A stretch of DNA of 64,000 nucleotides from Natribaculum luteum (GTDB lineage Archaea > Halobacteriota > Halobacteria > Halobacteriales > Natrialbaceae): the NCBI RefSeq assembly GCF_023008545.1, contig NZ_CP095397.1, positions 2,903,199 to 2,967,198 of the forward strand. Reading direction: 5' to 3'. Below the pieces are notes generated by a model. That model was not told the origin of the DNA. It worked only from the letters and a program-made list of their open reading frames with translations, and searched no databases. Shown here piece by piece: positions 46,064 to 50,410 of the stretch. Both the position numbers and the translations under genes were made by a program. The number at the start of each line of letters is the position of its first letter. Position 1 is the first letter of the stretch.

Positions 46064-47104
46064 ATGGAGACGTCCCATCGCGTTATCGTCGGCGACTCGA
46101 GAGCGTTCACCGAAGTCGACGACGACTCGGTCGAACTCGTCGTCACCTCCCCGCCGTACCCGATGATCGACCTCTGGGACGACCTCTTTATCGATCTCGA
46201 TCCGACCGTTGGCGACGCCCTCGAGCGTGGCGACGGTCGAGAAGCGTTCGAGGCGATGCACGCCCAGCTCGATCGCGTCTGGGACGAACTCGAGCGTGTC
46301 CTCGTCGACGGCGGCATCGCCTGTATCAACGTCGGCGACGCGACGCGCACCCTCGACGGGAGCTTTCGCGTCTATCCCAACCACGCCCGGATCGTCGAGG
46401 CGTTCGAACGGCGCGGATTCGACCCGTTGCCCGACGTTCTCTGGCGAAAACCGGCCAACAGCGCCGCGAAGTTCATGGGCAGCGGGATGATCCCGCCTAA
46501 CGCCTACGTCACCCTCGAGCACGAGTACGTGCTCATCTTCCGGAACGGCTCCTCGTCCCGGCGCTTCGAGTCCCGTGCCGACTGTCGCTACGAGGCGGCG
46601 TACTTCTGGGAGGAACGAAACCGCTGGTTCTCCGACGTCTGGACCGATGTCCGTGGCGAACTCCAGGCGCTCGAGCGAGACGACCTCCGGGAGCGGTCCG
46701 CGGCGTACCCACTCGAGATCCCCTATCGCCTCATCTGTATGTACTCGACGTATGGCGACACCGTTCTCGATCCCTTCTGGGGAACTGGGACGACGTCGCT
46801 CGCCGCGATGTGCGCCGGACGAAACTCTATCGGCTGCGAGCTCGAGGCGGAGTTCGTCTCCGTCTTCGACGACCGCGTCTCGACGGTCGACGAACTCTCC
46901 CAGGAGGTCGCCAGAACGCGACTGGCCGACCACCGGGCGTTCGTCGCCGAGCGACGAGCCGACGGCGACGACCTCGAGTACCGGGCCGAGCACTACGACG
47001 TTCCCGTGATGACCAAGATGGAGCGCAACATTCGGTTGTACGCCGTCGACGCGGTCGAATCGCTCGAGGACGGCTACCGGATCGACCACACCGTATTCGA
47101 GTAG
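46064..47104 (+). CDS. zim: DNA (cytosine-N4) methyltransferase, probable CTAG methylase
   Basis: A 346-aa beta-class amino-methyltransferase. The catalytic motif TSPPYP (28-33) precedes the SAM motif DPFWGTGTTSLAA, which is the m4C/beta order; TSPPY rather than DPPY favours N4-cytosine. I match it to the orphan haloarchaeal CTAG methylase (Zim), which modifies CTAG without a restriction partner; the specificity is inferred from family, not proved. It stands alone between the acidic membrane gene and the glycine-zipper cassette. Confidence 0.88.
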   Translation: METSHRVIVGDSRAFTEVDDDSVELVVTSPPYPMIDLWDDLFIDLDPTVGDALERGDGREAFEAMHAQLDRVWDELERVLVDGGIACINVGDATRTLDGSFRVYPNHARIVEAFERRGFDPLPDVLWRKPANSAAKFMGSGMIPPNAYVTLEHEYVLIFRNGSSSRRFESRADCRYEAAYFWEERNRWFSDVWTDVRGELQALERDDLRERSAAYPLEIPYRLICMYSTYGDTVLDPFWGTGTTSLAAMCAGRNSIGCELEAEFVSVFDDRVSTVDELSQEVARTRLADHRAFVAERRADGDDLEYRAEHYDVPVMTKMERNIRLYAVDAVESLEDGYRIDHTVFE

Positions 47105-47252
47105 GCCATCGCGTGGTGACGAGCGGTCCCGTTCGCTTCGGTCGTCAGCGATTGCGAATGCCGTGAACGGTTACACGAGAACGTGTGAGCGTAGCACACG
47201 CAAGCCCAACTTGCACACCGACGTGGACCGTAACCTATATTGGTTTTATCAT

Positions 47253-48056
47253 ATGTGGAACCGATCAAAAAAAGACAGCGGTAGTGAACGTACGGATTCC
47301 GGACAGCCGGAGATGCGCTATCGTACTCCGGATACGATTCGTATTGCGTCTGAGCAGTCGAAATCCAGCGGACGGCTCGTACCTGATGGCGGCGAAGTCG
47401 ACGAGAGTTCGGACCAGAACGCCGAATCGGACGGCGACGCAGAAGCGAGCGATTCAGAAGAAACGCCGGTAGAAGAGACGGACGGGAGTGAAGCAGCGTC
47501 GGAGGAGGCCGAGGAGATCGAAGGCGAGGAAGTCGAAGAAGAGAGTGAAGAGGCCGAAGAAGAGGGTGAAGAAGCCGAAGAAGCCGAAGAAGAGGGGGAG
47601 GAGGCCGAAATCCTGCACCTCGATCTCGAGGGGCTGTTCCTGAACGTGCTCGGACTCGAGGTCGACCTGAACGAAGTCGTCCTCGACGTGTCGGCCCATC
47701 CGGGATCGAACCGGCTCCTCGGGAACCTGCTGTCGACCGTGTCGTCGCTGTTCGACGGCACGTCCGGCTCCCTCCTTGGGGGACTCGGATCCTCTCTCGG
47801 CGGGCTGTTCGGATCGGGCGACGGATCGGACGGCGGCGGCATCCTGTCCTCGATCGCCGGAAGCGTCCGAAGCGGCGTCAATCGTGCCGTCTCGAGCATC
47901 CCTCTCGAAGAAGTAATCGCCCAGGGCGTGCAGGCGCTGATTCGACAGCTTCTCGACCAGTCTGGATCCCAGGCCAGCGAGGACGTCGCCGAGCAGGCGA
48001 GCGAAGGCCCCGCCCAGTCACAGCCTGAGTCACAGCAAGCGGAGGCAGAATCATGA
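47253..48056 (+). CDS. Cassette protein 1: acidic linker, L/V-rich repeat domain and Gly/Ser tail
   Basis: A 267-aa protein with no family name I know. Residues 1-40 are basic/polar and about 45-125 are E/A/S-rich coil (EEAEEIEGEEVEEESEEAEE). A compact alternating strand block of about 40 residues follows (ILHLDLEGLFLNVLGLEVDL then PGSNRLLGNLLSTVSSLFDG). The tail is Gly/Ser-rich and ends with an amphipathic helix. The NLLGNLL-type motif resembles one I recall in uncharacterised bacterial proteins. The start could be 47253 or 47313. Its stop overlaps the next gene by ATGA. Confidence 0.8.
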   Translation: MWNRSKKDSGSERTDSGQPEMRYRTPDTIRIASEQSKSSGRLVPDGGEVDESSDQNAESDGDAEASDSEETPVEETDGSEAASEEAEEIEGEEVEEESEEAEEEGEEAEEAEEEGEEAEILHLDLEGLFLNVLGLEVDLNEVVLDVSAHPGSNRLLGNLLSTVSSLFDGTSGSLLGGLGSSLGGLFGSGDGSDGGGILSSIAGSVRSGVNRAVSSIPLEEVIAQGVQALIRQLLDQSGSQASEDVAEQASEGPAQSQPESQQAEAES

Positions 48057-48523
48057 GCGGCGACTCCGTCGTTCAACAGATCGACTACGGAAAAATCGCC
48101 GAGAACATCGACACCGACGAGCTACTCGAGGGGACCAGATGGGAGGGCGAGTTCGACGAGAGCGAGAATTTCGGGGCGGCGATCGGCGGGATCATCGGCG
48201 CGATCGTCGGCCAAAAAATCGGCGAAGCCGTCGGACAAACGGTCGGAGATACGCTGGTGAAAGAGCTCTTGGGCTCGGAAGAAGCCGAAAAAGGGGAAGA
48301 CACAGAAGAGACGGCAGAAGAGGAGTCGGAAGCCGAAGAAACACCGGAAGAGACGGAAGAAGCAGAGACGGAAGAAGCAGAAGCGGAAGAAAAGCCAGAA
48401 GAAACCGAAGAAGCACGCTCCGTCGAGACTCCGGCGGACGAACAGGCGGCGTCGAACGGCGGTGAGACCGAAACGGAACGCGAGGGAGAACAGACGGAGC
48501 CCGAAGACGTAGATTCGGAGTAA
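48053..48523 (+). CDS. Cassette protein 2: glycine zipper with acidic tail
   Basis: A 156-aa protein. An N-terminal helix VQQIDYGKIAENIDTDELLE leads into a glycine-zipper segment (FGAAIGGIIGAIVGQKIGEA; GxxxG spaced), then a long E/T/A-rich acidic tail. The zipper could insert in membranes or self-assemble. Its start overlaps the upstream stop by four bases, so the two are translationally coupled. Confidence 0.82.
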   Translation: MSGDSVVQQIDYGKIAENIDTDELLEGTRWEGEFDESENFGAAIGGIIGAIVGQKIGEAVGQTVGDTLVKELLGSEEAEKGEDTEETAEEESEAEETPEETEEAETEEAEAEEKPEETEEARSVETPADEQAASNGGETETEREGEQTEPEDVDSE

Positions 48524-48604
48524 TACGATGAACAGCATACTAGCTCCGAGCGAGACGGCGACCTCGGTCGAACGTCCGACGCGACTCGGTGCTAATCGAC
48601 CGGC

Positions 48605-49348
48605 GTGGATCGCCGTCTCCTCATCGACGAGGTGTCTCGCGTGAGCGACGATACCAGCTTGGTCGATGCCGTCGCCGAGGAAGTGACCGATCAGATCGCC
48701 GTCGACGACCTGCTCGGGGACGGGGATCTCGAGGAGCAGCTCGATACGGGATCTATCGGCGCCTCCCTGGGCCGCGAGTTCGGTGCCCAGATCGGCCGCG
48801 AACTGGGCAAAGCGGTCGGACGGGAGATACACGCGGCGATCTCTGACGGATTGGAGCAGGGCCGCGATCTGGGCGAACTCGTCGCCGACGCCGAATCGGC
48901 GGCGGTACGCGGTGCTCGGAACGCCCTCGACGAACTCGACGGTAGCGACTCGTTCGCCTCTCTCCTTCGGGGGGTCGGTGAGAGGGATGCCGGCGATCAG
49001 CTGACCGGCGCGGCAGCGAACGCACTCACCGGGGACGGCGAGCGAGCCAACGACGAACCGCAAGCGGACGAACCGGCCGCCGACGAAGCCGAGGCCGAGG
49101 ATAACGAAGGCGAAGACGAAGGAGGCGAAAGTGACGGTGAAGAAGTGGCCGAGAACGAACCGACAGACGACTCGTCGAATCACGTCGGAGCGGACGACCT
49201 CGACGACCTCCGACGCGACACGCTCGAGGACTTCCTCGAGGTAATGTCCGACGAGCATCTCCAGTCGGTCGCCCGTGACGTAGGAGTCGACGCGGATCTC
49301 AGCCGCGAGGAGATGACCGACCAGATCGTCGCGGAAGTTGCGGGGTAA
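48605..49348 (+). CDS. Cassette protein 3: zipper paralogue with SAP-like C-terminus
   Basis: A 247-aa protein. The N-terminal third resembles protein 2 (TDQIAVDDLLGDGDLEEQLD then GASLGREFGAQIGRELGKAV), with the same glycine spacing but fewer hydrophobics. A middle acidic linker follows. The C-terminal 45 residues (LRRDTLEDFLEVMSDEHLQS...REEMTDQIVAEV) look like a small SAP or Rho-N helix-turn-helix, which usually binds nucleic acid. Start is GTG 48605; an ATG at 48529 is in another frame. Confidence 0.8.
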   Translation: MDRRLLIDEVSRVSDDTSLVDAVAEEVTDQIAVDDLLGDGDLEEQLDTGSIGASLGREFGAQIGRELGKAVGREIHAAISDGLEQGRDLGELVADAESAAVRGARNALDELDGSDSFASLLRGVGERDAGDQLTGAAANALTGDGERANDEPQADEPAADEAEAEDNEGEDEGGESDGEEVAENEPTDDSSNHVGADDLDDLRRDTLEDFLEVMSDEHLQSVARDVGVDADLSREEMTDQIVAEVAG

Positions 49349-49372
49349 TCCGAAGCCACAGCCACAGTAGCC

Positions 49373-50044
49373 ATGACCGAGACCGATCACCTACGAGAAC
49401 GCGTGACTGACCTGTTGGACGAGGCCGAAGCGGGCGTCGATTCGCTCCCCTTGCACGGAGACGCGAGTGAAGACGACCTCGTCGGCGCGTTAGCGGACGA
49501 AGACGGCCACCGACTGCTCGAGGCCGCCGACGACGCCGCCGACCTGCTCGAGACGGCGGACTCTCGGGCGTTACTCGAGGCGCTCGATCTCGCCGAGTTG
49601 CCTGACGGGAGCCGTCCGGAGACGATCCCCGAGGCGATCGCCGGTGGCGAGCAGAGTGGAGTCGAGGACCTCCGCGTGCTGGTGAAACTCGCGAGGCTCT
49701 CGGACGGTATCGATCGCGACTGCGGCGAATCGCTCGCGGAGCTTCGGACCGTGGTCGCCGATCGCACCGACGAGCACGGACGAGAAGAGGGCCTGCAATC
49801 GACGATGCGTTCCGCACTTGGTGACTTCGGTGACGAAGTTCAAGATTTGCGTGGCCGACTCGAAGGGATGGCTGGTGATGACGGCGACGCGGATACGGCT
49901 GCAGATGACGCTAGTAACGACGAGAGAGATTATGCCGATGTCGGCTCGCGACAAAACTCGACGATGTATTCGACGATGGCGCTACCGCCGTCCGAACGAC
50001 CGGATATGGGACAATCGACGCGACATTCCACGATGCCAAAGTGA
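49373..50044 (+). CDS. Cassette protein 4: helical protein with STM-repeat tail
   Basis: A 223-aa acidic helical protein (LRERVTDLLDEAEAGVDSLP, GHRLLEAADDAADLLETADS, LRVLVKLARLSDGIDRDCGE) with one cysteine in DCGE. The tail is not acidic and repeats STM (NSTMYSTMALPP...HSTMPK). No family is recognised. It begins 24 bases after protein 3 and ends just before the first rRNA promoter. Confidence 0.8.
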   Translation: MTETDHLRERVTDLLDEAEAGVDSLPLHGDASEDDLVGALADEDGHRLLEAADDAADLLETADSRALLEALDLAELPDGSRPETIPEAIAGGEQSGVEDLRVLVKLARLSDGIDRDCGESLAELRTVVADRTDEHGREEGLQSTMRSALGDFGDEVQDLRGRLEGMAGDDGDADTAADDASNDERDYADVGSRQNSTMYSTMALPPSERPDMGQSTRHSTMPK

Positions 50045-50062: not shown

Positions 50063-50410
50063 CCGATCCGACGGCCTTATACATACCCGACCGTTGAGAT
50101 AGGGATGCAAACGCGCCACCGGGCGCCGTCCGGTGGTGCCCCGATCTGGGGCTGTCAGTATGTGAGGTCGTTCGGAACGTAATCTGGTCGGTTTTGCCGA
50201 CCTGATTCGATCCGACGCCCTTATATACTTTTGGCCGTTCAGATTGGAACGCAAAAGCCCTCGCCGGATGCGGTTTCCGGCAGGGGATCGATCCGATGCC
50301 CTTAAGTGTACGAGGGCACTCGGATGTAAACGCAACGAACGCGTGATCGACGGGGCGTTCAACTCGCTCCGTCATCTTGGACGTCCGCTCCGAAGGGGTT
50401 AAGTACTCCT
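50063..50410 (+). promoter_or_regulatory. Four tandem rRNA promoters
   Basis: Four copies of a GATCCGAYGSCCTTA element with TATA core occur: P1 50063-50087 (CCTTATACAT), P2 50208-50234 (CCCTTATATACTT), P3 50286-50312 (CCCTTAAGTGTAC), P4 50383-50410 (GGGGTTAAGTACTCC). Each is followed 20-30 bases later by a similar start region (ATGCAAACG, GAACGCAAAAG, ATGTAAACG). 50045-50607 contains no genuine gene; open frames here are spurious. Confidence 0.85.

Follow-up and report, generated by a model that had tools for sequence, protein, structure and literature searches.

A probable four-gene accessory module of GvpC-less gas vesicles in Natribaculum luteum and other haloarchaea

The window, the whole stretch of 64 000 nucleotides of Natribaculum luteum DNA that was analysed, contains four rightward open reading frames at 47253–50044, here named g1 to g4, and their coordinates and spacing (a 4-base overlap followed by gaps of 81 and 24 bases) were confirmed by reading the window. 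All lie on the forward strand: g1 (47253–48056) encodes 267 amino acids with an acidic N-terminal half, an unnamed beta/helix domain and amphipathic C-terminal helices; g2 (48053–48523) encodes a glycine-zipper protein of 156 amino acids with an acidic tail; g3 (48605–49348) encodes a second glycine-zipper protein with a SAP/Rho-N-like C-terminus; and g4 (49373–50044) encodes 223 amino acids, an acidic paralog of GvpI. The start of g3 is probably the GTG at 48641 and not 48605, because its homologs begin there. The acidity ascribed to all four products in the first-pass annotation was borne out (pI 4.05–4.10, D+E 25–35%) and, as it had also reported, none has a recognised function, all scoring below the Pfam and NCBIfam cut-offs; g2 gave sub-threshold matches to glycine zippers only. 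Comparison with Natribaculum breve yielded dN/dS values of 0.35–0.48 for g1–g4, indicating purifying selection, and these are therefore real genes; they evolve faster than the neighbouring methyltransferase (dN/dS 0.08 in the same comparison). This N4/N6 DNA methyltransferase (46064–47104) lies just 5' of g1, adjoins the operon in five examined genomes and has no restriction partner in the surrounding gene map. Three copies of TCGATCCGACGCCCTTA, spaced by 144 and 81, are located at 50063–50304, 5' of the 16S rRNA, and are probably tandem rRNA promoters.

The strand block followed by an NLLGNLL motif that had been read in g1 was recovered in a structural model of 156 residues, in which four short strands (residues 7–37) and then a helix (44–57) are predicted with moderate confidence (pLDDT 67). 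The core domain of ~50 residues (HLDLEGLFLNVLGLEVDLNEVVLDVSA..LLGNLL; 47607–47759, forward strand) has 18 invariant columns among 19 homologs and no Pfam entry, and no PDB relative of g1 was found by fold or sequence match with this model. A GvpA-like beta hairpin was considered for g1 and rejected, the profile comparison being negative (P 0.1) and PDB fold and sequence matches absent; profile comparison likewise gave no similarity between g1 and GvpA, GvpJ or GvpM. Actinobacteria and haloarchaea also have the core domain in secreted proteins without a gvp link, and a GNLLGNLLCAVAGLLD-type version with cysteines ends secreted proteins in L196, L211, L242, L222, L224 and L237. The g1 homologs in L160, L161, L163 and L164 reach ~590–840 amino acids, long arrays of amphipathic helices accompanying N-terminal repeats of Ig-like or carboxypeptidase-regulatory-like type. 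The L163 homolog also carries a C-terminal glycine zipper, a fusion which hints that g1 and g2/g3 act together.

A conserved element, TAGCACACGCAAGCCCAACTTGCACACCGA, is located 5' of g1 (47192–47221, forward strand) and was present in 40 Natrialbaceae loci as well as in the window; the pattern RCANACGCAAGNCNAA occurs once in the entire host genome. In relatives the element stands 53–59 nt ahead of the g1 start, and this fixed distance supports the start at 47253. It is weakly like a conserved TTGCAGTCGCAG.GCAAGCC element 5' of gvpA (L083–L101), and a regulator common to the two is possible. Scored with the position weight matrix of the g1 element, sequences 5' of gvpA had a mean of -15.8 against -20.5 (sd 5.0) for shuffles, and those 5' of gvpF were not above shuffles. 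A regulatory element shared by the g1 and gvpA promoters was rejected, the signal being too weak and the sequences too related for a claim of co-regulation.

The glycine zippers of g2 (GxxxG repeats, 48173–48259) and g3 (48758–48832), both on the forward strand, retain invariant glycines at G49, G53, G57, G61 and G65 among 22 sequences, and at G56, G60, G64 and G68 among 37 sequences, respectively. The glycine-spaced helix noted in both proteins proved to be homologous by profile–profile comparison (P 97.4, E 9e-12, 72 columns), and the internal duplication suspected with it also stands, g2 and g3 being duplicates of one glycine-zipper protein. In L099 (genome G037) a g2-type zipper is fused to a g3-type C-terminus in one protein, and the ancestor of g2 and g3 was perhaps a single protein of this kind. 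Membrane insertion, which had been suggested for these helices, was not supported: the best hydropathy was 1.33 over 19 residues, below the usual transmembrane level, and the g3 zipper helix is rich in charge, so that a soluble helical layer is to be expected and not a membrane span.

The C-terminus of g3 (49190–49342, forward strand) was modelled as a SAP/Rho-N-type helix-loop-helix with AlphaFold pLDDT 93–96, in agreement with the fold first proposed, and the model matches the DEK SAP and Rho N-terminal folds at 1.0–1.2 Å. The helix–extended loop–helix arrangement is present, and the match to DEK SAP extends over 42 residues. Foldseek returned DEK SAP (8kd1, 8kcy) and Rho (5jjl) with probabilities up to 0.96 and E-values above 1, as is expected for a domain this short; no SAP/Rho-N sequence profile was significant on the g3 C-terminus, where the best homolog matches (E 0.12–0.14) fell under the cut-offs. 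Given the gas-vesicle context described below, the modelled domain probably binds protein. Some GvpC proteins (L097:11755-11931, L250:8055-9077) end in a SAP-like segment, YxKLKxAANxxGYDGNLNAAxKDELV, in place of which Halobacterium-type GvpC has a zinc-finger-like end. Homology between the g3 C-terminus and these GvpC ends, which are alike by eye, was rejected (hhalign P 2, not significant).

The STM-repeat tail reported for g4 is present (49955–50041, forward strand), but its identity had been missed: it corresponds to the C-terminal motif of GvpI, NxTxxSTM..R.DM...R.STMP, and g4 carries the C-terminal STxP repeats of that family. Alignment of g4 with a GvpI profile by hhalign gave P 99.4 and E 3.6e-21 over 239 columns, and the g4 search also retrieved the GvpI proteins of gvp clusters. 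Genome G007 encodes, between gvpH and gvpJ, a 117-aa protein that matches both the annotated Halobacterium gvpI and the large acidic protein found between gvpH and gvpJ in the host family. The YGxR of the terminal RxYGxR is invariant in the GvpI set, and the motif is absent from 28 of 28 g4 sequences. The host has its own GvpI between gvpH and gvpJ (L080:8612-9544); g4 is therefore a diverged paralog and not the orthologous GvpI. Stand-alone GvpI-like genes away from gvp clusters were also seen in two Natrialbaceae genomes (L058:8020-8793 and L059:7358-8146).

The genes behave as a co-inherited set of conserved order, as had been proposed. The complete g1-g2-g3-g4 order was present in 47 of the 71 loci of a genome scan, in which relatives' genes were called by an in-house codon-usage script that missed or mis-started some (e.g. 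g2–g3 in L199 and L227); the complete loci include Halogeometricum, Halegenticoccus and Halogranum of the Haloferacaceae. A search of 41 genomes found g4 in 23, and the 16 kb around its matches preserved the g1–g4 order in the host genus, in nearly every other host-family genus with a match and in one genome of another family.

At ~20 loci from several families, the host not among them, g1 or the whole operon lies at or in a gvp cluster. Four loci have the whole operon at a gvp cluster: it stands beside gvpO in L170, L176/L187 and L200, and follows gvpL directly in L052/L179 (L052 is G036); g1 and a glycine zipper lie inside or flank gvp clusters in L055, L099, L157, L159-164, L168, L173-175, L191, L192, L201, L216, L245 and L246. 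In L055 (G029) homologs of g1, the glycine-zipper protein and g4 occupy the place of gvpI between gvpH and gvpJ, and in L099 g1 and the fused g2/g3-type protein adjoin gvpO. Most members of the host family have the operon and the gvp cluster far apart, and in the host itself the cluster (L080; G000:C1, about 247.9–253.5 kb) is ~2.7 Mb from g1–g4 by contig coordinates. In the host cluster gvpA and gvpO are 124 bases apart, with no gvpN between them; most relatives have a ~340-aa gene there. In N. breve (L081:1-18001) the gvp cluster is gone except for a gvpM remnant, and the flanking genes and g1–g4 are intact; this represents a recent gvp loss, useful for testing the dependence of g1–g4.

Across 342 haloarchaeal genomes the g1 profile was found in 120, GvpA in 143 and both in 118, and g1 was absent from 197 of the 199 genomes without GvpA. 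Co-occurrence gave a Fisher p of about 1e-63 (6e-9 inside the host family and 3e-33 outside it), values that overstate independence since the genomes are related, and the pattern recurs in several families. Within the host family g1 was carried by 69 of 72 gvp-positive genomes and by none of the eight gvp-negative ones; outside it, 49 of 51 g1-positive genomes had GvpA. Both exceptions, which have g1 but no GvpA, seem to be artefacts: G031 gave a weak match (E 6e-6), and the G109 match covers the core only and contains two stops, the genome being 70% complete. The first-pass annotation had seen components of a self-assembling structure; these data agree that the proteins are parts of one, and what it had missed is that the structure would be the gas vesicle.

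GvpC was assigned next to gvpA in 11 of the 342 genomes, an adjacency confirmed by direct reading for G047 and four clusters, with strong profile scores standing in for it in the remaining genomes. It was present in one of 118 g1-positive and 10 of 25 g1-negative gvp-bearing genomes (p about 5e-8; 4.5e-8), and the exclusion persisted when stratified by family (p 7e-7), holding within four families. G047, the sole genome with both, has GvpC in a separate gvpA-C-N-O half-cluster and a full gvp cluster without it. Both GvpC and g1 are missing from 15 gvp genomes, so loss of GvpC does not require the module. The GvpC profile found nothing in the host genome, and hence no match to g1–g4. Among 62 examined clusters, GvpI was of 117–141 aa and pI 10–11 in all four clusters with GvpC, and of 246–369 aa and pI 4.1–4.5 in each of the 57 GvpC-less clusters whose GvpI was identified. 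The presence of GvpC thus tracks the type of GvpI, which suggests two designs, with g1–g4 belonging to the GvpC-less one. Vac regions without gvpC and gvpDE have been described in Natrialba, Natrinema, Halopiger, Haladaptatus and Natronobacterium, the species being vesicle-negative (PMC4390858); a later review table gives gvpACNO for these genera (PMC9501494), a listing that the gene maps of the host family do not support.

That g1–g4 belongs to gas-vesicle machinery is well supported. Since it travels with GvpC-less gvp clusters, the operon probably supplies an alternative set of gas-vesicle parts that has been overlooked, and there are good grounds for regarding its four genes as an accessory module of haloarchaeal gas vesicles of the GvpC-less type. 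Against this reading stand the distance between operon and gvp cluster in most of the host family, the intact g1–g4 of N. breve, the gvp genomes lacking both GvpC and g1, the g1 domain of secreted proteins with no gvp link, the lack of similarity of g1 to GvpA, GvpJ and GvpM, and the vesicle-negative reports for species with such clusters. No description of g1–g4 was found in the literature searched, subscription journals and preprints aside; the genes are undescribed as a set, and they are not an orphan cassette.

Deletion of gvpI leads to extremely long vesicles, and GvpI binds GvpH, GvpF and GvpL (PMC7688916). In classical haloarchaea GvpC would brace the exterior of the shell, and the small basic GvpI, with GvpH, GvpL and GvpF, would limit vesicle length; in the GvpC-less type GvpI would have turned into a large acidic protein. 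Because g4 is homologous to GvpI, it would most likely dock on the same assembly proteins, via the common STxP tail. Glycine zippers lend themselves to close lateral packing of helices; those of g2 and g3 may line up against one another and, joined by the g1 domain, could make up an acidic layer or a cap complex that sits on the shell and takes over the bracing and shaping done by GvpC. The least certain step, which we infer only tentatively, is that g1–g4 takes the place of GvpC as a coat of the shell. A similar reserve applies to the scheme of two haloarchaeal designs, one in which GvpC is paired with a small basic GvpI and the other GvpC-less, with an acidic GvpI and g1–g4 as an alternative shell coat; in that scheme the alternative coat might set strength and shape, and the GvpC-less design is the commoner among the sampled genomes.

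A role in assembly or regulation, as a chaperone or nucleation complex with GvpH, GvpL and GvpF, would also make the module gas-vesicle machinery; a pure assembly role, itself a tentative proposal, appears about equally likely as a GvpC-like coat. It draws on the relationship of g4 to GvpI, an accessory binder of these three proteins that affects vesicle length, on the existence of some GvpC-less clusters without g1, and on the upstream element of g1, which differs from the gvpA promoter and resembles it weakly, so that the timing of expression may differ. A role purely in assembly, however, would not predict the near-exclusion of g1 and GvpC. It is unlikely that the module works apart from gas vesicles, for example as a cytoplasmic or envelope scaffold, sharing merely common ancestry (the GvpI paralog) and lineage with gvp. 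The separation of operon and gvp cluster in most of the host family, the retention of g1–g4 by N. breve after gvp loss and the g1 domain of secreted proteins elsewhere would fit such a job, but g1 and GvpA are almost inseparable in the genome counts given above (118 of 120 and 197 of 199), and placement inside gvp clusters is repeated in several families. That gvp clusters of the g1–g4 type build a GvpA-based shell of some other compartment, and not a flotation vesicle, is also improbable: GvpI is radically changed, GvpC is absent and a vesicle-negative state is reported for Natrialba and Natrinema, among other carriers (PMC4390858), but GvpA and the assembly set F–M are conserved, and a vesicle-negative phenotype may depend on growth conditions. 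A tie of the cassette to nucleic acid or to the rRNA operon, as had been hinted at first, is highly improbable and was rejected by synteny: in N. breve as in the window, g1–g4 lies ~560 bases upstream of the 16S rRNA, and the SAP-like fold of the very acidic g3 end was the sole basis for a nucleic-acid link, but outside Natribaculum none of the examined genera had rRNA within the 16 kb surrounding the operon, which makes the neighbourhood an accident of the host genus.

The archaeal gas-vesicle parts list is based on Halobacterium and Haloferax, which both belong to the type with GvpC; among the sampled genomes the g1 module occurs in 118 of 143 GvpA carriers, compared with GvpC in 11 of 342. 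Should the module be needed, this could account for the incomplete look of GvpC-less clusters and for the vesicle-negative scoring of the species that own them, and g1–g4 is a concrete gene set to add when such clusters are expressed elsewhere. Gas vesicles serve as ultrasound reporters whose acoustic response is set by the proteins that brace the shell, so another natural set of such proteins would be of use.

Several known systems resemble parts of the module. The Pfam families Gly-zipper_Omp and Rick_17kDa_Anti have a GxxxG-spaced helix as in g2 and g3, which score below every curated cut-off (20.3 against 25 bits), have no lipoprotein or outer-membrane signal and, in g3, carry a highly charged zipper. 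The SAP and Rho N-terminal domains of DEK, 3'hExo and Rho have a fold like that of the last 50 residues of g3, which are strongly acidic and without significant sequence match. The secreted GNLLGNLLCAVAGLLD-domain proteins (e.g. of Arthrobacter, Nocardioides and Halogeometricum) have the core domain in common with g1; unlike g1 they have signal peptides and cysteines, with no gvp neighbours in the stretches read. Haloarchaeal GvpI of GvpC-less clusters aligns with g4 over 239 columns and shares the tail NPTAxSTxP..RxSTVP, whereas g4 is without the terminal RxYGxR and its gene lies behind g3, not between gvpH and gvpJ; compared with the small, basic Halobacterium GvpI, g4 is acidic and about twice as long. 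GvpC, the outer reinforcing protein, has tandem helical repeats that g1–g4 do not, and its gene sits between gvpA and gvpN; like g1–g4 it is acidic and accessory, and the distribution of g1–g4 is the complement of its own.
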